Shown in pieces: positions 3,965-37,518 of a stretch of DNA of 64,000 nt. The translations under genes and the position numbers were made by a program. The stretch's first letter is position 1; every line of letters starts with the position of its first letter. Below the pieces are notes generated by a model that was not told the DNA's origin, ran no database searches, and worked only from the letters and a program-made list of their open reading frames with translations. This stretch comes from Candidatus Microgenomates bacterium (GTDB taxonomy: Bacteria > Patescibacteriota > Microgenomatia > UBA1406 > HO2-37-13b), in assembly GCA_025449735.1 (NCBI GenBank), contig JANWIV010000003.1:186001-250000 (forward strand), written 5' to 3'.

Positions 3965-5008
3965 TCACACCATCTCATACCGAGAAGCTTTGGTCTTACC
4001 TACTTTTTTAATTATTCCTTTATCAATCAAATCAGTCAGATCACGAAGCACGGTGTCTTCTGACACTTCTGGTACGACTTCACCGAATTGTTGATTTTGT
4101 AAGTAGCCAATGTTTTGAATGTATTCGATAAGTTTAGTTTGACGCTCCGTCAAATAAACCTGCTTACCGCCAAGCTTTTTCTTGAGTTGAGTATCTTTTG
4201 AAAGTTTCAGCACCTTAATTTTCACCCGATCAAACTCAAGACTGACGCCTAAGGTAAAATACTCAAGCCAACTAGTGAGATCTCCAGCAGAAGCCTTTTG
4301 TAGGTTAGTATAGTAGGTTATTGCATCCTTATCATAATATTCTTCTAGTGAAAAAAATCGCCTAATATCATATTTACCCAAAAACATAAGCAGAGTTGTA
4401 AATGCCCGTGCCACACGACCATTACCATCTATAAATGGGTGGACTCGCACCAGCTCATGATGAGCGATTCCGGCTTTAAGAATTGGGTGCATCGCGTCCT
4501 CATCGGTATTATTAAGCCAATAAAAAAATTCCCGCATAAGAAATGAAATTTCCTCCGGTCGTGGCGGACGAAAAGTTATCTCCCCATTCTCACTATTTCT
4601 TATTACTACCTGTTTATCTCGATATTCACCGGCTCGACTCTCATCTAATATTTTCTCAACGACGATTTTGTGAAGTTTTTTAAACAATGGTTCGCTTAAT
4701 CGACTAATACCCCGCTCCGCTTCCTCTTCAATGACATCAATCACCCGCCGATAATTAATGACCTCCTGCACATCACGGGGCCGACCGATCACCGGGCTAC
4801 CTGAAAGAACATCTTTGGCTTCTGATAAATTCAGTTGATTGCCTTCAATGTGAGTGCCGTGATGAGCAGTACGAACCATGGCTTCATCACGAAATTGTTT
4901 TTCCCAAAGTGGCAGAAGCGGCGAGTCGGCAATTACTTCGCGAGCGCCCTCGATGATGCCAATATTACGCAAGATCTTATTAGTGATTACAAATTTAGGA
5001 TCAAACAT
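3965..5008 (-). CDS. Fic family protein with C-terminal winged helix
   Basis: 347 residues. The Fic core has the active-site motif HPFIDGNGRVAR, which in this family transfers AMP (or another nucleotide phosphate) to a target hydroxyl. Upstream near residue 55 is HIEGNQL, which fits the (S/T)xxxE(G/N)-type inhibitory helix region of class II Fic proteins, although the exact first residue is uncertain. The last 70 residues (LTERQTKLIEYIQ...VSEDTVLRDLTDLIDKGIIKK) form a winged-helix, suggesting DNA binding or transcriptional self-control. It is a stand-alone gene. A second, unrelated-context Fic protein lies at 28947-30089. The target is unknown. Confidence 0.85.
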   Translation of the reverse strand: MFDPKFVITNKILRNIGIIEGAREVIADSPLLPLWEKQFRDEAMVRTAHHGTHIEGNQLNLSEAKDVLSGSPVIGRPRDVQEVINYRRVIDVIEEEAERGISRLSEPLFKKLHKIVVEKILDESRAGEYRDKQVVIRNSENGEITFRPPRPEEISFLMREFFYWLNNTDEDAMHPILKAGIAHHELVRVHPFIDGNGRVARAFTTLLMFLGKYDIRRFFSLEEYYDKDAITYYTNLQKASAGDLTSWLEYFTLGVSLEFDRVKIKVLKLSKDTQLKKKLGGKQVYLTERQTKLIEYIQNIGYLQNQQFGEVVPEVSEDTVLRDLTDLIDKGIIKKVGKTKASRYEMV

Positions 5009-5927: not shown

Positions 5928-6230
5928 ATGAATTTGGCTCAAGTGAACCCCACGACATTACCAACGTACTTTCCTCCAGCGCGATATGCTACCGTCGGCT
6001 CACTGTTATCTATTATTATACCGTTAATTGTAATTGTTGGGGCGCTATTGTTGCTCGCCTTGTTTCTCTCAGGAGCCTTTAAAATTGTCACTGCTAGTGG
6101 AGATCCTGAAAAATTCCAAAGTGCCAAAAATACGTTAAAATTTGCGCTACTGGGTTTTATTTTAATTATTTTAGCACTAGTATTAACTAGAATAATTGGT
6201 CGTATTACTGGTATTCAAATTCCAATATGA
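5928..6230 (+). CDS. T4SS pilin-like small membrane protein (VirB2/TrbC-like)
   Basis: 100 residues: a short N-terminal segment, then two transmembrane helices (about 26-50 and 72-92) separated by a polar loop containing TASGDPEKFQSAKNTLKFAL. This TM-(S/T)SGDxxxxxxAxxxL-TM pattern is typical of the small VirB2/T4SS-pilin-like proteins common in Patescibacteria. It overlaps the next gene by ATGA, so the two are co-translated. In this group such proteins are thought to build secretion or pilus structures, but no VirB4/VirB6 partner is in the window. Confidence 0.7.
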   Translation: MNLAQVNPTTLPTYFPPARYATVGSLLSIIIPLIVIVGALLLLALFLSGAFKIVTASGDPEKFQSAKNTLKFALLGFILIILALVLTRIIGRITGIQIPI

Positions 6231-27090: not shown

Positions 27091-28353
27091 TTAGTTCTTT
27101 ATTTCTCTTTTCCCCGTCACCAATTGGGGAATTAAAAGATCACGGGTTTTGATCAATATATCGATTTGTTTTACAAGCTTATCAACCTCATTAATCGCCG
27201 GTTCACATAATTTAGCAAACTCTATCAGTGATTTATGGTCGGGTATAATTGCATCATATTCCAAAATTGCAGTTGGTTTGAGATGAAGGACATTTGCCCC
27301 ATTAGCTTTTTGTTTCGTTGTTTCAGTAAATCGATAACTTGATAGTATCTTGTACAAAAAACTATTAGGTAATACATCAGAATTTATTTTTACAACATCC
27401 GCTGAAAATGTAACTTGTCCGTTGATTTCTGGTACACGTGCTGGTCTTGCAATCACAGCCCGATCAGTTGTCATGTCAGTGACTGCCACTACAATATCTC
27501 CAGCTTCAAGCGATTGATTGCTATTAATTGTTCCTGAAAAATATTTCACACCGTCAAATCGAAAACCACCTCCACGATTAAAACTTTTAAGATTTACCAT
27601 ATAATAATCACCGATAAAATCATTAATATCTTCGCTGGAATACGAACGTCCACGAATAATATTTGCGACTTCGGAAAGTTTTTTCACTTTCCACCCCTCT
27701 GGAATCTTGTCATATTTAGTACCACTATCAACCATCTTTACTTTTTCATGCCCTGGAAATTTGAATTTTACAAACCATTCTGTGTAAAGCAGTTGCGCCA
27801 TTTCCTCAAGCGTTTTAATTCGCTTTTCGTTATTTTCAATTAGGTCGTCATAAGTAGAAAGAGCAGATGCAATACGAATTTGAATTTGTGGATCGGGTAA
27901 ATCTACAAGAGTATTTTCAATCAATGGTAAACGTAAGTTGCTGACTGTAGATCCAGACCCATCTGAACGTTTGAACTGCCTTTGAACTGAAGGAGATATA
28001 AGTTGGTATAAAAGAAACTTTGCATCAATTTTTTTTGGTTGAATTAAAACTACTCGTTGACCAAGACACAATTTTTCTTCATTGTTTACATAGCCAACTT
28101 GACCAATAGGAGCTTCACGTGAAAGGATACTATCTCCTACTTTTGGAACCGCTCTTTTTGTACGATAAACGTAATTATCATAGTTTGTATAACTTGCTTT
28201 TTCTTTAATGATTCTACCGTTAGAAAGATTATAATTTCTAACAACAAAATAACCAACGTCTGTCCAACTTGGTGTGGAGTGTGGGCAGTCAACTATTTTC
28301 GCAATCTCACCTAACTTTACTTTCTGCCAATTATTTATTATCAGATTTTGCAT
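27091..28353 (-). CDS. hsdS: Type I restriction enzyme specificity subunit (HsdS)
   Basis: 420 residues with two target-recognition domains, each followed by a conserved helical spacer: NNWQKVKLGEIAKIVDCPHS at the start and a second TRD opening IPEGWKVKKLSEVANIIRGR near residue 215. The segments LPLIENTLVDLPDPQIQIRI and IPDHKSLIEFAKLCEPAINE are the paired connector helices. It fixes the DNA sequence methylated and protected by HsdM. It is three bases after a small zinc-ribbon gene. The HsdR gene is two genes downstream. Confidence 0.94.
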   Translation of the reverse strand: MQNLIINNWQKVKLGEIAKIVDCPHSTPSWTDVGYFVVRNYNLSNGRIIKEKASYTNYDNYVYRTKRAVPKVGDSILSREAPIGQVGYVNNEEKLCLGQRVVLIQPKKIDAKFLLYQLISPSVQRQFKRSDGSGSTVSNLRLPLIENTLVDLPDPQIQIRIASALSTYDDLIENNEKRIKTLEEMAQLLYTEWFVKFKFPGHEKVKMVDSGTKYDKIPEGWKVKKLSEVANIIRGRSYSSEDINDFIGDYYMVNLKSFNRGGGFRFDGVKYFSGTINSNQSLEAGDIVVAVTDMTTDRAVIARPARVPEINGQVTFSADVVKINSDVLPNSFLYKILSSYRFTETTKQKANGANVLHLKPTAILEYDAIIPDHKSLIEFAKLCEPAINEVDKLVKQIDILIKTRDLLIPQLVTGKREIKN

Positions 28354-28356
28354 ATG

Positions 28357-28812
28357 TTATCTTTCTGCCTTAATATTTACAACTTGGTTATATTGATTAA
28401 TAAAAATGTCGAATTTGATCATGGTTTGTGGTTCTTTGGTTAATATTTCAATGATTACCTTGAGAATCAGAATGTAAGTCAGGATTCTTTTTGGAGAATT
28501 TGGCAACCATTTCTTTAAGTCGCTGAATTTTGAGGAAGTCTTTATTTCGGTTAAATCATTTTGCTGCTTTGCTTTTTCTAGCGCCTCAAGTAGCTCCTCT
28601 GCTCTTTTAAGTGGATTGTCTGATTGCTCTAAAACCTTGATAACTCCCTCGACCGTTCCTTTAAATGTGCCGTCTGGAATATTTTCAAAAGAACCACAGA
28701 ACGGACATATAGATTTATTACCTACCAAAGTTATACTCGCTCCAGAGCCAATATTTAGTCCTGAAGAAAAACTTCTAAAACAAGTTTTGCACTGCATCAT
28801 TAATAAAGCCAT
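28357..28812 (-). CDS. Small zinc-ribbon protein in the restriction operon
   Basis: 151 residues. MMQCKTCFRSF and later KSICPFCGSFENIP form two CxxC pairs, a zinc ribbon. Then a helical region (GTVEGVIKVLEQSDNPLKRAEELLEALEKAKQQ) and a hydrophobic C-terminal segment. It ends three bases before hsdS. Zinc-ribbon proteins of this size sometimes accompany type I systems, but I know no tested function. Confidence 0.5.
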   Translation of the reverse strand: MALLMMQCKTCFRSFSSGLNIGSGASITLVGNKSICPFCGSFENIPDGTFKGTVEGVIKVLEQSDNPLKRAEELLEALEKAKQQNDLTEIKTSSKFSDLKKWLPNSPKRILTYILILKVIIEILTKEPQTMIKFDIFINQYNQVVNIKAER

Positions 28813-28943
28813 ATTTTATTCTTTCATTTTCTTGATCTAAAAAAAATTTTAACAGTCCGGAAATTCCTAATAACTGAATTTTTATTTCGTCAAATAATCT
28901 TTTCCTGGTCTTCTTTGATTTTTACTTTCTGAAAAGTTGTCAT
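28775..28943 (-). pseudogene. Small gene with a +1 frameshift, between the Fic and zinc-ribbon genes
   Basis: A start ATG at 28941-28943 lies three bases after the Fic stop and opens MTTFQKVKIKEDQEKII, then TGA at 28890-28892. In the +1 frame, the sequence continues without interruption as DEIKIQLLGISGLLKFFLDQ and on to a TAG at 28775-28777 inside the next gene. Together they give a plausible 55-residue helical protein. The shift point reads ATT TGA C, which resembles the prfB-type programmed +1 site but lacks the usual CTT. It could be a true frameshift mutation, a sequencing error or programmed. I treat it as a broken gene. Confidence 0.45.
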
Positions 28944-28946
28944 AAT

Positions 28947-30089
28947 TTATTTTCTAAATAGCGTCACGTAATCCTTCATTTCAAACAACCTGTTTCTGGA
29001 ATAACCAGTTTTCTCCTGTAGAATTCCTAGCCTCGTGAGATCGGCAACAAGATCGCTTCCTGCTTTAAAACTGATACTCAAAACTTCACTCACGCTATTT
29101 ACACTCACAATTGGCTGTGAGAATAGATGTAAAAGTAATTGCCTCGCTCTTGGAACTTTTCTTCCTAAGGTTGCGATTTTATTATCATATTGCTCACGAA
29201 GCGTAATAATATTTTCGAATTTTTGTTTTCCTTTATTGCTCGTCATGACAACCCCTTCAAGGAAAAATCGTATCCACCCCTCAAGATTATCTTTCTGTCG
29301 AACTTCATCAAGCATTTCATAATATGATTGGCGATATTCTTCAAAATAGTCTGAAATATACAATACTGGCTTACTCAGAAATCCGCGCTCTATGAGTTGC
29401 AAAGCAATAAGCAATCGACCAATACGACCATTTCCATCAAGAAATGGATGAATCGTTTCAAATTGATAATGCATGATCGCTATTTTTATCAAAACCGGAA
29501 TATTTAATGAAGAATTATGCCAAAATCTTTCCCAATCAGAAAGTAATTCTGCAACTTTTTCGTGGTGTGGTGGTACAAAGTGGGCTGTACGAATAGAAGA
29601 ACCCCCGATCCAGTTTTGACTTGTGCGAATCTCTCCAGGCATTTTATGCTTACCTCTTACGCTTACAAGAAGTCTCGCATGTGTTTCTTTTATGAGTCGT
29701 ACTGAAACTGGTAATGTCTTTTGCTCTTCAACCGACCAGTTCATGGCGTTGATATAGTTTTTAACCTCTCTCCAATCATCTCGTCGTTCTGGATCAATTT
29801 CATCTTCCGGAAGCAATACTTCATCTATTTCTGTACGGGTGCCTTCGATACGAGACGAGCTTACCGCTTCGGATTTAACATGCATTTGAATGAAATAATC
29901 AATATCAGGGACTAATCGCGAATATGCGTTTAATTCGCCCAATAAACGAGTAGCCTCTTCAAGAAGAATGATTGTAGACTGATCACTAGCTATAAATGGT
30001 CTGTTAATAGGAGAGGGTAGGAAACTTTTATATTCAGTCTCCTTGCCTGCATACATTGTTTGGTATGTTCCCGCAGTAAAGTTTTTCAT
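28947..30089 (-). CDS. Fic family protein (DUF4172-like N-terminus)
   Basis: 380 residues with the Fic active site HPFLDGNGRIGRLL (AMP or nucleotide transfer) and an N-terminal domain beginning with SFLPSPINRPFI. The segment VSSSRIEGTRTEIDE holds the inhibitory (S/T)xxxE(G/N) motif (SSRIEG), indicating autoinhibition as in class II Fic proteins. A C-terminal wHTH-like tail (VNSVSEVLSISFKAGSDLVADLTRLGILQEK) follows. It is placed between hsdM and hsdS and has its own promoter. It may regulate or protect the restriction enzyme (inference). Confidence 0.88.
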   Translation of the reverse strand: MKNFTAGTYQTMYAGKETEYKSFLPSPINRPFIASDQSTIILLEEATRLLGELNAYSRLVPDIDYFIQMHVKSEAVSSSRIEGTRTEIDEVLLPEDEIDPERRDDWREVKNYINAMNWSVEEQKTLPVSVRLIKETHARLLVSVRGKHKMPGEIRTSQNWIGGSSIRTAHFVPPHHEKVAELLSDWERFWHNSSLNIPVLIKIAIMHYQFETIHPFLDGNGRIGRLLIALQLIERGFLSKPVLYISDYFEEYRQSYYEMLDEVRQKDNLEGWIRFFLEGVVMTSNKGKQKFENIITLREQYDNKIATLGRKVPRARQLLLHLFSQPIVSVNSVSEVLSISFKAGSDLVADLTRLGILQEKTGYSRNRLFEMKDYVTLFRK

Positions 30090-30095
30090 ACAGTA

Positions 30096-30124
30096 AATAT
30101 ACCATATTATATTATACTTTGCAA
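30096..30124 (-). promoter_or_regulatory. Promoter giving a leaderless Fic mRNA
   Basis: On the minus strand TTGCAA (30119-30124) and TATATT (30096-30101) are separated by 17 bases. The -10 ends six bases before the ATG at 30089, so transcription would start at or next to the start codon. No Shine-Dalgarno is present. It permits the Fic gene to be expressed independently of hsdM. Confidence 0.55.
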
Positions 30125-30146
30125 GTGTAAAGTAAAATAAGTAATT

Positions 30147-31736
30147 CTATATGATAGTTTTCCAATCATCTTTGATTTTCCTTTCCAAATTGTGTGCTTC
30201 TGTTGTGAGTAATGTGAAATCACCCATAAGCTCTTTCATACGCGCATCAAAATCAACGCCACTCATTTCTTTTTCTACTATTTCTACATAGCGCCCCGGA
30301 TTAAGAGAGTAGTCATTAGTCCGAACTTCTTCAAGAGTTGCCACTTTGCATCTTCCTTTGATATCCTGATATTTCTCTTCGCCTTTTTCTTCACGATATC
30401 TTCGAACGATGGAGGCAATTTCTTGAATTTGCTCATCTGTCCACTCGCTATGGGCGCGATCAATGGGAGTGAAAACGTCTTGAGCGTTAATAAAAAGTGT
30501 TGTGTTTTGTCTGGCAGTGCCATTTTTACGCTTATCAAAAAACCATAAGGTGCAAGAGAGTGTAGCATTCATAAACATATTGGTACCGACAGAAATAATC
30601 ACATCTACCATTCCCGCATCAATCATTTTTTTGCGGATCTCTTTTTCAGCATTTCCGGCATCACTGGCTGAATTTGCCATAACAAAACCGGCGCGACCTT
30701 GCGGATTTAGGGCACTTGCAAACATTTGCATCCACAGATAATTGGCATTTGAAATTTCGCCTTTACCAGTGATAGGAAGTCCAAGATAGTAGCGTGGATC
30801 GCCCTTTATCTTTGCTGGATCAATCACGATTTGCTTATTTTTATCTTTCCCTTTTACATTAAAGGGTGGATTGGCAAGTACGAAATCAAAAGCGCCGACA
30901 CTGTTAAACGCATCAGTATAAAAAGAATTAACTTCGGCAATTTTGCCAGACAAGCCGTGAATTGCGAGGTTCATTTTGGCAGTACGGATATTACTCGTTC
31001 CTTTTTCTTGACCATACAAGGCGATTTCATTCATTATCTTGTCTGTATAAGAGTGTGCCTTTACAAAGTTTGCAGATTGTACAAACATTCCACCGCTTCC
31101 GCAGGCTGGATCAAAAATTTTACCGTGATACGGCTCAATGACTTCTACCAACAACTTAACAATAGATTGTGGCGTAAAAAACTCTCCTCCTTTTGCCCCT
31201 TCTGAACGTGCAAATTCACCTAGAAAGTATTCGTAAATCTCTCCAAACGCATCGCCTTCAATATCGTCAGGGATTTGGTTAAAGTTTTTTAGAAGTGTGA
31301 TCAGTATTTGGCTATTTTCACCAGGGGTTCTGTGCAATGACTCGTAATCTCTTGGGAGCACACCGGCTAGGTCAGTATTTTCAGCTTCGATAGCTTTCAT
31401 AGCCTCGTTAATAGCTTTACCAATATTTTCACTCCCCGGAAGACTCATGAGATATGAATACGTGGCTATCTCAGGCAAAAACAGCACGCCTTTTGATTTG
31501 TAGTGATCTGGTGTAAGTGGAGCCTGTCTGTGGCCACTTGTTGAGTACTGCGTTCCGGACCGATCAGCGACAATGTCCACTTGCACTTTTTTAAATCGAA
31601 CATCAGCAAATTTTAAGAATATCAAGCCTAATATCGGCTCAGAAATCTCATTGAGTTTAAGACCTGAGTTTGCTCGAAGTTGTACTGCAGCCGACCAAAG
31701 TCTTTCATGGAGCTGTTTACGATTGTTGGTTGTCAT
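30147..31736 (-). CDS. hsdM: Type I restriction enzyme modification subunit (HsdM)
   Basis: 529 residues: an N-terminal helical domain (LWSAAVQLRANSGLKLNEIS) and an N6-adenine methyltransferase with the SAM motif IFDPACGSGGMFVQS and the catalytic NPPF in DFVLANPPFNVKG. It methylates the host DNA in complex with HsdS. It heads the restriction operon (hsdM, Fic, small genes, hsdS, nuclease, hsdR, all on the minus strand). The 143-base upstream region shows no convincing Shine-Dalgarno. Confidence 0.96.
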   Translation of the reverse strand: MTTNNRKQLHERLWSAAVQLRANSGLKLNEISEPILGLIFLKFADVRFKKVQVDIVADRSGTQYSTSGHRQAPLTPDHYKSKGVLFLPEIATYSYLMSLPGSENIGKAINEAMKAIEAENTDLAGVLPRDYESLHRTPGENSQILITLLKNFNQIPDDIEGDAFGEIYEYFLGEFARSEGAKGGEFFTPQSIVKLLVEVIEPYHGKIFDPACGSGGMFVQSANFVKAHSYTDKIMNEIALYGQEKGTSNIRTAKMNLAIHGLSGKIAEVNSFYTDAFNSVGAFDFVLANPPFNVKGKDKNKQIVIDPAKIKGDPRYYLGLPITGKGEISNANYLWMQMFASALNPQGRAGFVMANSASDAGNAEKEIRKKMIDAGMVDVIISVGTNMFMNATLSCTLWFFDKRKNGTARQNTTLFINAQDVFTPIDRAHSEWTDEQIQEIASIVRRYREEKGEEKYQDIKGRCKVATLEEVRTNDYSLNPGRYVEIVEKEMSGVDFDARMKELMGDFTLLTTEAHNLERKIKDDWKTII

Positions 31737-32819: not shown

Positions 32820-33866
32820 CTAGACACTGGAAGATTTATCGGAAGTATTTGAATGTAAAAAGTACAGATGGTTCTTCAAACGTTGCTTTAATTTAAAACT
32901 ATTTGCATGTTTTAAATAACCAAAATATGACTGAAGGCTTTGGTTAAATGAATCATAAGAAATGTAGTCACGAGTAAGTTCTTCCATCTTCTTATCTAGC
33001 TTTTGGAAGAGACGTTTTTTTGTTTTAGTCCGTGGCAAAATGTAATGAGGTAAAATAACATAACCAAGAAAATCAATACCCCAAGAAAACTTTCGTATGA
33101 GAATTTTTCTAGGATGTAGCTTGATCTTTAATTGTTGCTGTAAAAAACCGTCCACTTTCTCAATCAAAGAATCCAGTAGCTTTTCATCTTGGCTCACAAT
33201 AATAAAATCATCACAGTATCTAATGTAATGTCTGATATGAAGTTCATGTTTTATGAATTGATCAAGCTCATTTAAATAGACATTAGCAAATAATTGACTG
33301 GTAAGATTCCCTAGCGGCAACCCCCTTGGAAAACTATCCAAAACTTTTTTAATGAGGAAAATGGTTCTTTCATCTTGAATTGTTTTGTTAATTATCGAAA
33401 GGAGAATATCTTTATCAACTGAGGCAAAGTACTTGCTTACATCACATTTAAGCACATACGTATCTTGAGAGTAATTTTTACTCGATTTTTTTAAGAATAC
33501 TTGTAGTCTCTTTACTGCTTTATGGGTTCCTTTATCATTTCTACATGAATATGAGTCGAAAATAAATGTAGGATCAAAAATTGGATATAGAGATGAATAG
33601 ATGGCTTGATGTACGAGACGATCTTTAACCGTTGCCTTATGAATATGACGCTGCTTTGGATCATTGACATAAAATGGGATGTAGTCATCGTGGGTATAAA
33701 TACTCTTTTTAAGAGAGGTGTGGAGATCAAAAATATTATCCTCAAGGTGATAGTTAAATATCTGAACATCCTTTCTTTTCTTTTTTCCTAGTTGAAACCT
33801 TTCCCACGCCCTAAACAGACTTTCAACTGCTATAATACCTTCATAAGAAATTACTTTTGTACTCAT
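32820..33866 (-). CDS. Diversity-generating retroelement reverse transcriptase
   Basis: 348 residues of the DGR reverse transcriptase clade. The catalytic motifs are LKCDVSKYFASVD (D142) and IRYCDDFIIVS (YCDD at 217-220). Motif 4 is GLPLGNLTSQL (182-192), with the S-Q that distinguishes DGR RTs from group II intron RTs (S-P). It copies the template repeat with adenine mutagenesis. There is no maturase domain. Its ATG abuts that of avd (CAT-ATG at 33864-33869), on the opposite strand. Template repeat, variable repeat and RT all read on the minus strand. Confidence 0.95.
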   Translation of the reverse strand: MSTKVISYEGIIAVESLFRAWERFQLGKKKRKDVQIFNYHLEDNIFDLHTSLKKSIYTHDDYIPFYVNDPKQRHIHKATVKDRLVHQAIYSSLYPIFDPTFIFDSYSCRNDKGTHKAVKRLQVFLKKSSKNYSQDTYVLKCDVSKYFASVDKDILLSIINKTIQDERTIFLIKKVLDSFPRGLPLGNLTSQLFANVYLNELDQFIKHELHIRHYIRYCDDFIIVSQDEKLLDSLIEKVDGFLQQQLKIKLHPRKILIRKFSWGIDFLGYVILPHYILPRTKTKKRLFQKLDKKMEELTRDYISYDSFNQSLQSYFGYLKHANSFKLKQRLKNHLYFLHSNTSDKSSSV

Positions 33867-33897
33867 ATGTCAAATAATCAAACATTTAAAAAAGGGC

Positions 33898-33922
33898 CAC
33901 ACACACACACACACACACACAC
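33898..33922. repeat. (CA)12 microsatellite in the avd 5' coding region
   Basis: Twelve CA dinucleotides followed by one extra C. The repeat lies within the N-terminal codons of avd and 32-56 bases upstream of the RT start codon on the other strand, so it also overlaps the region expected to hold the RT promoter. With 12 units the avd ATG is 55 bases before its frame (55 mod 3 = 1). Thirteen or ten units would restore the frame. Dinucleotide tracts of this length are rare in such genomes and mutate by slippage. Confidence 0.85.
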
Positions 33923-34260
33923 CTATAGTAAATACCGGTGGTTGGAATCAACTCGATATTCCTGTCTTTTCAAAAACATATGAATTTTACAAACTCTTAT
34001 ATCAATATCTTCGTCTTTTTCCTAAAAAGGACCGATATACATTGGGACAAAAAATTGACACTCTCGCCCTTAATCTCATAGAACTCGTTATTATAGCGGG
34101 TACAAGTTCTAAAGAAAAGAAGCTGCCATATATTGAAAAAGCAAATACTTCTGTCGATCTTCTTAAACTTCTCCTTCGACTTGCAAAAGATATTGAAGCA
34201 TTAGATGGTAAGAAATACGTTGCTCTCCAGCAAGATTTACAAGAAATTGGAAGAATGCTA

Positions 34261-34285
34261 GGAGGATGGAAAAAATCCATCCTCC
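34261..34285. other. Perfect 10-bp hairpin next to the template repeat
   Basis: GGAGGATGGA / TCCATCCTCC with an AAAAA loop (34261-34285). On the plus strand it encodes the end of avd; on the minus strand it lies 24 bases after the template repeat, in the spacer of the template RNA between TR and RT. Known DGR template RNAs rely on structures just 3' of TR to prime cDNA synthesis, so this hairpin is a candidate. The loop-downstream sequence is not T-rich, so it is not a typical terminator. Confidence 0.55.
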
Positions 34286-34309
34286 CTTCTCTTTAGAGCA
34301 AGATACTAT

Positions 34310-34426
34310 CTCGAAACGGCCACCTATATTGTCATTGCGATTGTCTGGATTCCAATTCGAATTGGCATTGAGGTTGCCATCCGTATTGAAGTTCGCATTG
34401 AGAACTCTGCCATCGTTGCGAGAACC
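34310..34426 (-). repeat. DGR template repeat (TR)
   Basis: 117 bp, aligned without gaps to the variable repeat at 34752-34868. Read on the minus strand it gives G-S-R-N-D-G-R-V-L-N-A-N-F-N-T-D-G-N-L-N and onward, with twelve Asn (AAY) codons. It has 35 adenines (T on the plus strand); 23 of them differ in VR and nothing else differs. The codon periodicity is the hallmark of a DGR template. It does not encode a protein of its own. Confidence 0.96.
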
Positions 34427-34739: not shown

Positions 34740-35432
34740 TCATTTCACTCCCTCGAAACGGCCACCCATACTGTCATGGCGAGAGCCTGGATCCCAAAGC
34801 GAACTGGCACCGAGGCCGCCACCCGCATTGAAGCGCGCACCGAGAACCCCGCCATCGTCGCGAGAACCGGGAAGACGAGACCATGTTTGATATCCATGAT
34901 CAAAATATTCACCAGTAAGATCAAAATTATCTTCTGATCCAATAATATACGTTTCTAAAGTCATACCATGTCTACCTGTTTCTTCTGCAATTCTTTGAAG
35001 GTCGGCTACATTTGTACGAAGGTTTGGGGCTTTTGTAGAATTTTCTATATCAAGATACCCAAATCGAGGATCGCTTTCTACGGGAGAATTTGGCTGAGTA
35101 GCCCAGCTTCCAAGTGAAGTGTGTATCTGGCCTAGATGTGCGAGAGTGATACCTTCAGGTCGTAAAACTAATTTGCGACCTTGGCCATGCAGTTCCTGAA
35201 CCTCATCTCGAGATCTATCAACACGAGTTCGTGGGATATCGGCTCCAATAATAGTTCCAAATGCTTCCCAGCGTTCGCTCCAATAGTCTGAATAATCCCC
35301 TGGAGTAGGATCTGTAAGCTGTTTGAAAGCATCAGCTGCCTGCCTTACCCGTTGATGGGCATCCGGACGATTTCTAATAAGATCTAAATTTACTTGAAAC
35401 TGAGATTGTTCTGCTCCTACGCGTTCTGACAT
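34740..35432 (-). CDS. DGR target protein with variable C-terminus
   Basis: 230 residues. The C-terminus (residues 189-227) is the variable repeat (34752-34868): the TR Asn positions have become D, G, R, N, G, G, S, L, D, S, H, S. The segment TWSRLPGSRDDGGVLGARFN with following GGRFEGV resembles the C-type-lectin/formylglycine-enzyme-like fold in which DGRs place variable loops. The first 150 residues are soluble and helical and unrecognised; no signal peptide or anchor is visible. The protein likely binds a changing ligand. The mRNA appears leaderless. Confidence 0.92.
   Translation of the reverse strand: MSERVGAEQSQFQVNLDLIRNRPDAHQRVRQAADAFKQLTDPTPGDYSDYWSERWEAFGTIIGADIPRTRVDRSRDEVQELHGQGRKLVLRPEGITLAHLGQIHTSLGSWATQPNSPVESDPRFGYLDIENSTKAPNLRTNVADLQRIAEETGRHGMTLETYIIGSEDNFDLTGEYFDHGYQTWSRLPGSRDDGGVLGARFNAGGGLGASSLWDPGSRHDSMGGRFEGVK
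34752..34868 (-). repeat. DGR variable repeat (VR)
   Basis: 117 bp matching TR at 34310-34426 with 23 substitutions, all at TR adenines (sense): 17 A to G, four A to C, two A to T. The non-adenine positions are identical. This strict pattern is direct evidence of adenine-specific mutagenic retrohoming. It ends nine bases before the target stop codon. Confidence 0.96.
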
Positions 35433-35751: not shown

Positions 35752-37518
35752 ATGGACAATCTATCTAAACAAGAAAATGCAGTCGCCGCAATAAGAGTGT
35801 CCTCGGTTAAGCAAGGAACTCAAGGCGATTCTCCAGAGGCACAAAAAGAGCAGATCGAACAATTCGCTAAATCTCACAATATCAATATTAAGAAATTCTT
35901 TATCTTCCTTGAATCAGCATCTAAAGAGGAACAGCCAGTGCAAGAAGCGATCGATTATTGCAAAAGTCCCAAAAATGATATACAGATTTTTATTATCAAA
36001 TCTATTGACCGATTTACCAGAGGTGGCTCGTATCTCTACGACCATCTAAAAATGCAACTTGAAAAAAAACATGTAAAACTCATTGATATTTATGGCGTTA
36101 TCGGTACACAACAGGTAAACACACTTGAACACCTGGGTATTTCATTTGATTGGAGTGTATATTCGCCAACTAAAAAGGCTGAGATATTGGAAGCAGAACG
36201 AGCAAAGGATGAAATGCGAGATATTATGAGTAGAATGATTGGTGCTGAAATTCGCTATGCCCGAATGGGATATTGGGTACGAAAGTCGCCCTTTGGATAC
36301 ATGAATGAAAAGATTGAAACACCAAATGGCAAAAGAACCATTTTGAAACCTGAGCCGACTGAATCACAATGGGTTATTAAGATGTTTGAACTGAGATGTC
36401 GAGGAAATTTAAACGATCATCAAATTGTTGAAGAAATTAATAATTTGGGTTTTAAGACGAGAGTAGAGATTGTACGAGATCATAAAGACAGAACTAAAAT
36501 TATTAAAGAAAAAGGTGGAAATCCGCTTAACATAAAAGGCTTTTGGCGATATATTCAAAACTCCATCTATGCGGGTGTGAGTATGGAGAAATGGACAAAA
36601 GATAAGCGGGTGAAAGCTCAATACAGTGGACTTGTTTCTATTGAAACATTTAATAAAGCAAATAGAGGTAAAGTTATTATTTCTGAAGAAAATGGAGAAG
36701 TGAAAATTTATCAAAGACCAGCGCCAGAATACTTACTCAAAAAGGGTGTGCGAAACCCTGACTTTCCTTACAAAAGAGTTGTTATGTGTCCTCAGTGCGC
36801 AAGACCATTGTTTGGTAGTGCTTCAAGAGGAAGACTTGGTAAATATTACCCTGCATACCATTGCAATAAAAGAGGTCATTATTTTAGAGTCTCAAAAGAT
36901 AAATTAGAAAAAACTGTTGAGAAGTTTGTAAAAAACATTAATCTCCCACAAAACTATATTGACGCATTAGTTACAACAATAACCACTGAATGGGACAAGA
37001 GACACACCGAAACTAATAAAGATCAGGTTAATATTGACACAAGAATCGCAGAACTCAAAACACAAGCAAAACTATCTTTTGATAAGATCAAATTTTTAAC
37101 ATCAGAAGTTGCCATTAAATACATGGAGCAGGATTTGGTCAAAGCAGAAAATGAGATTGCACAATTATTGGTTGAAAAAGAGAAAGCCATCCAACATCAA
37201 CCCACAGATATAAGGATTGTCATGGCATACATAAAATATTTTCTGGAACACATGGATGATTTACTGTTGGGAGGCTCTGATCCTATGAATAAAGCTTCTT
37301 ATTTTGGGGTACTTTTCGACAAGGCGCCAACCTATGAAGAAATAGATTCTGGCACCGCAGAAATGGCTCAATGCGTGGCTCTAAACGAGCTCTTTGTGCA
37401 CTCTCATAACAACTGGGCTGCCCAGCAGGGATTCGAACCCCGATTACCTGGTTCAGAGCCAGGCGTTCTACCATTGAACTACCGGGCAGATACTTATATT
37501 TTACCACGAAGCAGATAA
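35752..37518 (+). CDS. Large serine recombinase (integrase)
   Basis: 588 residues. N-terminal resolvase domain has AAIRVSSVKQGTQGDSPEAQ (catalytic serine in RVSS) and FIIKSIDRFTRGGS (conserved DRFTR). Then the recombinase domain (IQNSIYAGV) and a zinc ribbon (CPQCARPLFG... CNKRGH), then a coiled-coil C-terminus. It integrates or excises this element. From about residue 552 the frame reads antisense through tRNA-Gln (AAQQGFEPRLPGSEPGVLPL), so the true C-terminus has probably been replaced at integration. Neighbours: DGR upstream, host glycosidase downstream. Confidence 0.92.
   Translation: MDNLSKQENAVAAIRVSSVKQGTQGDSPEAQKEQIEQFAKSHNINIKKFFIFLESASKEEQPVQEAIDYCKSPKNDIQIFIIKSIDRFTRGGSYLYDHLKMQLEKKHVKLIDIYGVIGTQQVNTLEHLGISFDWSVYSPTKKAEILEAERAKDEMRDIMSRMIGAEIRYARMGYWVRKSPFGYMNEKIETPNGKRTILKPEPTESQWVIKMFELRCRGNLNDHQIVEEINNLGFKTRVEIVRDHKDRTKIIKEKGGNPLNIKGFWRYIQNSIYAGVSMEKWTKDKRVKAQYSGLVSIETFNKANRGKVIISEENGEVKIYQRPAPEYLLKKGVRNPDFPYKRVVMCPQCARPLFGSASRGRLGKYYPAYHCNKRGHYFRVSKDKLEKTVEKFVKNINLPQNYIDALVTTITTEWDKRHTETNKDQVNIDTRIAELKTQAKLSFDKIKFLTSEVAIKYMEQDLVKAENEIAQLLVEKEKAIQHQPTDIRIVMAYIKYFLEHMDDLLLGGSDPMNKASYFGVLFDKAPTYEEIDSGTAEMAQCVALNELFVHSHNNWAAQQGFEPRLPGSEPGVLPLNYRADTYILPRSR
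37418..37488 (-). tRNA. tRNA-Gln (CTG anticodon)
   Basis: 71 bases: acceptor stem TGCCCGG/CTGGGCA with one G-T pair, TTCGAAT T-arm, and anticodon arm CCTGG-CTCTGAA-CCAGG with CTG in position 34-36. No CCA is encoded. It lies antisense inside the recombinase frame and is the likely integration target or boundary of the island. Confidence 0.93.

Follow-up and report, generated by a model that had tools for sequence, protein, structure and literature searches.

In a 64-kb stretch of the genome of Candidatus Microgenomates bacterium (64,000 nucleotides, positions 186,001 to 250,000 of contig JANWIV010000003.1; the window hereafter), a reverse transcriptase (RT) gene and an avd gene stand head-to-head beside a template repeat (TR), a variable repeat (VR) and a target gene that carries the VR at its 3′ end. 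Its DGR-type RT, its TR/VR pair, its 3′ VR and its Avd identify the element as a genuine diversity-generating retroelement (DGR). Our subject is a perfect (CA)12 tract in the 5′ end of avd. The ATGs of avd and RT abut as CATATG (33864-33869). LGNLTSQ and YCDD motifs are present in the RT, which is 50-56% identical to other Patescibacteria DGR RTs, and its relatives are DGR-type RTs adjoining avd. Differences between TR and VR fall at TR adenines in 24 of 25 cases, so the element has been active in the lineage despite the out-of-frame avd of the assembly. G predominates among the VR substitutions at template adenines (18, with 4 to C and 2 to T), though the count is small. Profile searches of the window proteins gave no family match for the target gene.

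The frame opened by the avd ATG (33867) crosses the CA tract, reads MSNNQTFKKGPHTHTHTHTYSKYRWLESTRYSCLFKNI and stops at 33981-33983, and Avd continues in the next frame. The preliminary description had read the locus in this way, and the sequence and the profile matches bear it out. A single C (33922) directly follows the tract (33898-33921, plus strand), and the Avd-coding frame begins at this base, off by one from the frame of the ATG. It matches NCBIfam NF033474 DivGenRetAVD at 91.8 bits (cut-off 80) and Pfam bAvd PF22296 (E 1.1e-20). Two other routes into this frame were rejected. An alternative start downstream of the tract would need a start codon in the Avd frame, and from the stop that precedes the tract as far as the conserved Avd domain this frame has no ATG, GTG or TTG. 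A -1 frameshift at the AAAAAAG run (33888-33894) leads to the wrong frame, as +1 is required. The frame is rejoined by a gain of two bases (13 units) or a loss of four (10 units), and the arithmetic first offered for these two lengths was correct.

The window avd thus holds a perfect tandem repeat in coding sequence, with a unit that is not a multiple of three, and a change in unit number shifts the reading frame of a conserved gene. Compared with the avd of a relative in another genus (locus L003), differences at codon positions 1, 2 and 3 number 26/14/61, a pattern that shows the Avd frame to be under purifying selection. A genome-wide repeat scan found no other CA run of at least six units in the 821,951-bp genome, and (CA)12 is the sole tract of its kind within the window, so a chance origin is excluded. 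The RT frame meets a stop at 33870-33872, which rules out its dependence on the tract at this locus; here the tract governs avd only.

Features of the DGR locus in the window (positions of the 64-kb stretch)
Feature	Positions	Strand	Basis
DGR reverse transcriptase, 348 aa, divergent from avd, tract-independent here	32820..33866	-	RVT_1 E 2.9e-18
avd 5′ end, OFF frame of assembled consensus, 38 codons then stop	33867..33983	+	sequence, translation
In-frame stop TGA between tract and RT ATG	33870..33872	-	sequence
(CA)12, proposed slippage switch; (GT)12 on RT strand, 31 bases upstream of RT ATG	33898..33921	+	only CA run of at least 6 units in genome
Avd body, other frame, without canonical start upstream of conserved domain	33922..34296	+	PF22296, NF033474
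Template repeat (TR)	34305..34426	-	TR/VR comparison
Variable repeat (VR), 3′ end of target gene	34747..34868	-	TR/VR comparison
DGR target gene, 230 aa	34740..35432	-	ORF (open reading frame); no family match

Relatives of the RT were drawn from GTDB genomes, viral contigs, the family of the window genome and an even draw of 379 genomes across the phylum, 116 of which hold this RT type. Similarity of RT or Avd, and not the presence of repeats, decided which loci were taken, and duplicate removal left 166 non-redundant Patescibacteria DGR loci. In nearly all of them avd lies head-to-head with the RT, and in two other genera of the family a CA tract stands at the same place (L003, avd 76% identical; L004, 58%).

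Two sites carry the tracts across the phylum. The first is the boundary where the 5′ ends of avd and RT meet, with a perfect tract in 105/166 loci. The unit is G/C in 75 of these, a dinucleotide (GT, GA, CT) in 27, a tetramer in one and a pentamer in two, and never has a length of 3 or 6. The G/C runs span 8-13 bases, and the other units seen include CA, GA, CT, ATTG, CTGTC and ACAGG. The second site is inside the RT gene, near profile position 175 and ahead of the GLPLGN and YxDD motifs, where 21/166 loci have a tract: (GA/AG/CT)5-19 in 20 and G11 in one. Neither type was found in the remaining 40, four of which have a G7 at the boundary and one of which is masked there. No locus was assigned to both types; a short (AT)5 in the RT of two boundary loci was left uncounted. 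In four loci (L023, L024, L050 and L062) avd has been lost and a G tract is kept at the RT 5′ end, with the RT frame crossing it.

Tracts are concentrated at these two sites, which hold 131 in 78,850 bp, whereas the rest of these loci has 41 in 672,629 bp. None of the 131 hotspot tracts has a unit of 3 or 6 bases, as against 8 of the 41 outside. By parsimony, on a tree of 161 RTs in which many branches are weak, tract type or place has changed at least 44 times. The idea that such tracts occur throughout these genomes was rejected: the window genome has no second CA tract, and elsewhere about half of the G tracts of at least nine bases lie at DGRs (31/59 at a DGR boundary, in a hand count of the listing from 24 genomes picked for a G tract at the DGR). 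Of 20 regions sampled away from the listed DGR loci, three proved to be further avd or RT genes (L236, L242 and L243).

Nor, judged by samples from two other classes, are the tracts a general feature of DGRs, a candidate explanation that we rejected. The samples come from the class of L058 (a cyanobacterium) and that of L070 (Oscillospiraceae). All 48 avd genes in them have an in-frame start and none contains a tract; the RT is on the same strand as avd in 43 of the 48 loci. Boundary tracts were likewise absent from the out-of-clade DGRs of our first collection, L071 excepted. This is a different Patescibacteria DGR, with avd on the RT strand, and it has (AG)13 at the RT 5′ end (4974-4999 of the locus). 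The switch may therefore have arisen outside this clade too.

Reading frames differ sharply between loci with and without a boundary tract. An in-frame avd ATG is present in 26 of the 96 boundary-tract loci with an open upstream ATG, and in 33 of 37 loci without a tract (Fisher p 4.5e-11). Taking the nearest ATG, the avd offsets 0, 1 and 2 occur in 21, 40 and 35 boundary-tract loci. The gene bodies behind the tracts are intact (RT in 102/105 boundary loci, avd in 94/97). In the loci with an RT-internal tract, the two RT halves share one open frame in 9/21, and avd there has an in-frame ATG. As a rule, then, each locus has a single putative switch, and the gene without a tract is intact.

In 37 boundary loci the RT has no start between tract and domain, and its frame crosses the tract and opens at an ATG beyond it. 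Thirty-one of these overlapping arrangements could be scored for both genes, and avd and RT have the same offset in 28 of them when the nearest avd ATG and the farthest open RT ATG are used. With a shared offset, one slip would switch both genes. Where several ATGs are candidates the choice is our own rule, and a test that accepts any match gave 30/31, a value reached in 0 of 5000 shuffles.

Tract length also differs between close relatives in the clade, the window species being represented by a single sequence. Three sister genomes that are about 95% identical have G10 (L018/L263), G9 (L264) and G11 (L251), and the tract is the only internal gap in an alignment of about 1 kb of L018, L264 and L251. 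Net length, and hence frame, is altered in L251 only, as the run of L264 was shortened by a base change. L020 and L027 are 87% identical over 1.4 kb; at C9 both genes are in frame and at C10 both are out. Sister-species matches from genome G141 did not cover the tract.

We consider it very likely, from these comparisons of related genomes, that (CA)12 is a slipped-strand phase switch of the DGR machinery, whether such switches act on avd, on the RT or on both. The number of CA units would change during replication and move avd in or out of frame, and the cell would gain or lose Avd and, with Avd, mutagenic retrohoming of the target gene. The length in the window would be OFF, and 10 or 13 units ON. 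Avd is required for retrohoming in the DGR of phage BPP-1 (PMC12875486). For the loci described here we infer that tracts slip within populations, that OFF cells lack Avd or RT protein and that retrohoming fails when Avd is absent.

The preliminary description had proposed a phase-variable avd from the window alone. The same-place CA tracts of L003 and L004, the clade-wide tracts, the scrambled frames over intact gene bodies and the length differences between sisters now support that proposal. The relatives do not all have an in-frame number of units, and a fixed broken gene does not fit the purifying selection on the Avd frame or the diversified VR. The pattern goes beyond what had been proposed in that it is phylum-wide, that elsewhere the switch would act on the RT or on both genes, and that avd is divergent from the RT. 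Across Patescibacteria, a poorly known group of very small bacteria, a boundary tract would switch avd or both divergent genes, and an RT-internal tract would switch the RT. We regard it as likely, with somewhat less assurance than for the window tract, that targeted hypermutation in Patescibacteria is under a stochastic switch: tracts would have been gained and replaced many times at two sites, making RT and/or Avd phase-variable, one group would switch both genes by a single tract, and clones would alternate between diversifying and freezing the variable protein.

Several observations weigh against a phase switch. Across three genera (the window, L003 and L004) the tract has exactly 12 units and an identical offset, and free variation predicts otherwise. 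The coupling of avd and RT offsets falls to 19-24 of 31 under other rules of ATG choice, against about 10 expected. The loci share ancestry, and the survey counts are therefore non-independent. The tract was retained after avd loss in four loci, which is explained only by the RT frame crossing it there. Finally, 70 of the 96 boundary loci are OFF, a majority that, strictly speaking, leaves room for a non-canonical start or for constitutive recoding.

Constitutive recoding is the strongest competitor, and we think it improbable. RNA polymerase slippage or ribosomal frameshifting would supply a steady fraction of in-frame Avd at any DNA length, and the tract would be a dosage device. That most avd copies are out of frame agrees with this explanation, and homopolymers of 9-11 can cause transcriptional slippage. 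However, the units are as varied as G, CA, GA, CT, ATTG, CTGTC and ACAGG, and RNA slippage is not expected at tetramers and pentamers. Offsets of +1 and +2 are both common and 21-26 loci have an offset of zero, so no single recoding event fits, and sister genomes differ in tract length.

The tract might instead act as DNA or RNA for the RT strand, setting promoter spacing or forming an RT leader, with a (GT)n or G-run placed 30-60 bases before the RT; RT expression would then vary with length and the avd frame would be a by-product. The window tract does lie 31 bases upstream of the RT ATG, and the tract persists in the four loci without avd. In those loci, however, the RT itself spans the tract, and the second site lies inside the RT, where promoter spacing cannot apply. 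The lack of any three-base unit among the 131 hotspot tracts points to the reading frame, and the avd and RT frames are coupled in 28/31 loci. A role on the RT strand is thus very unlikely. No better is the chance that the window avd is a fixed pseudogene or an assembly error, which would suit a single metagenome-type genome with avd out of frame as assembled but not the tract at the same place in other genera of the family, the 26/14/61 pattern, the intact RT or the VR changes at adenines; a wrong length would, moreover, still leave the tract itself.

Other repeats and neighboring genes were seen in the course of this work. L014 has (ATGG)9 near 6018, where the RT frame is extended at its C terminus, and L017 has (ATAG)8 near 6095, at the contig end just behind the RT. 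The more distant DGR RTs of L242 and L243 have GA tracts, with (GA)13 in the L242 RT; near that RT, a 319-codon open frame contains (GA)12 (801-824 of L242) and is a possible further switched gene. In genome G192 (L230-L233), several G10-13 runs lie in a repeated, partly palindromic element outside DGRs. In the window, next to the DGR target, is a serine recombinase gene (35752-37518), the 3′ end of which overlaps an opposite-strand tRNA-Gln (37414-37489), a possible integration site. Beyond the RT, translations from 27091-31736 resemble a type I restriction specificity subunit, a Fic-type protein and a type I methyltransferase subunit.

The natural control of DGR activity has been named as an open question (PMC12875486). 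A mutator that was always on would also ruin good variants of the functional protein on which it acts. If our model is right, the tract would be a switch that needs no regulators and is suited to very small genomes: rare ON cells would diversify the target, and a later slip would freeze the winner. Such a tract would be a contingency locus of the second order, in which chance switches a generator of mutations, and it predicts alternating diversification and stasis. ON and OFF states would be readable from metagenome reads, in which tract units can be counted and set against the VR diversity of the same molecules. In many such loci, annotation pipelines would overlook avd or RT or cut it short.

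Among open-access papers, we found no report joining DGRs with phase variation, frameshift or homopolymers, nor any of phase variation in the CPR. The nearest described group is DGR clade 2 of Roux et al. 2021 (PMC8144416), which is restricted to Patescibacteria and, in the passages searched, resembles the element described here as a group of cellular Patescibacteria DGRs. By taxonomy and gene arrangement, not by tree placement, the window RT type probably belongs to that clade. Those passages make no mention of tracts or frame switching; they do discuss an alternation between phases of diversification and of selection, and the proposed switch would supply a mechanism for it.

The DGR of Bordetella phage BPP-1 (avd-TR-brt, Mtd) shares with the window element an RT, Avd and a TR/VR pair with adenine-directed changes. 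In BPP-1, however, avd, TR and brt form one operon, whereas the window avd is head-to-head with the RT and bears a slippery tract. Known contingency loci govern surface, capsule, restriction or regulator genes. In simple-sequence contingency loci such as the poly-C tract in mga of group A Streptococcus (PMC10330708) and Helicobacter sabA (PMC2715451), perfect short repeats in coding or promoter sequence, with a unit that is not a multiple of three, turn genes on and off by slipped-strand events, much as we propose here. Repeat phase variation and DGRs are each well known, and their combination would be the new part. In Patescibacteria, in contrast to those loci, the target of the putative switch is a targeted-mutagenesis machine, and some of the tracts lie where the 5′ ends of two divergent genes overlap.
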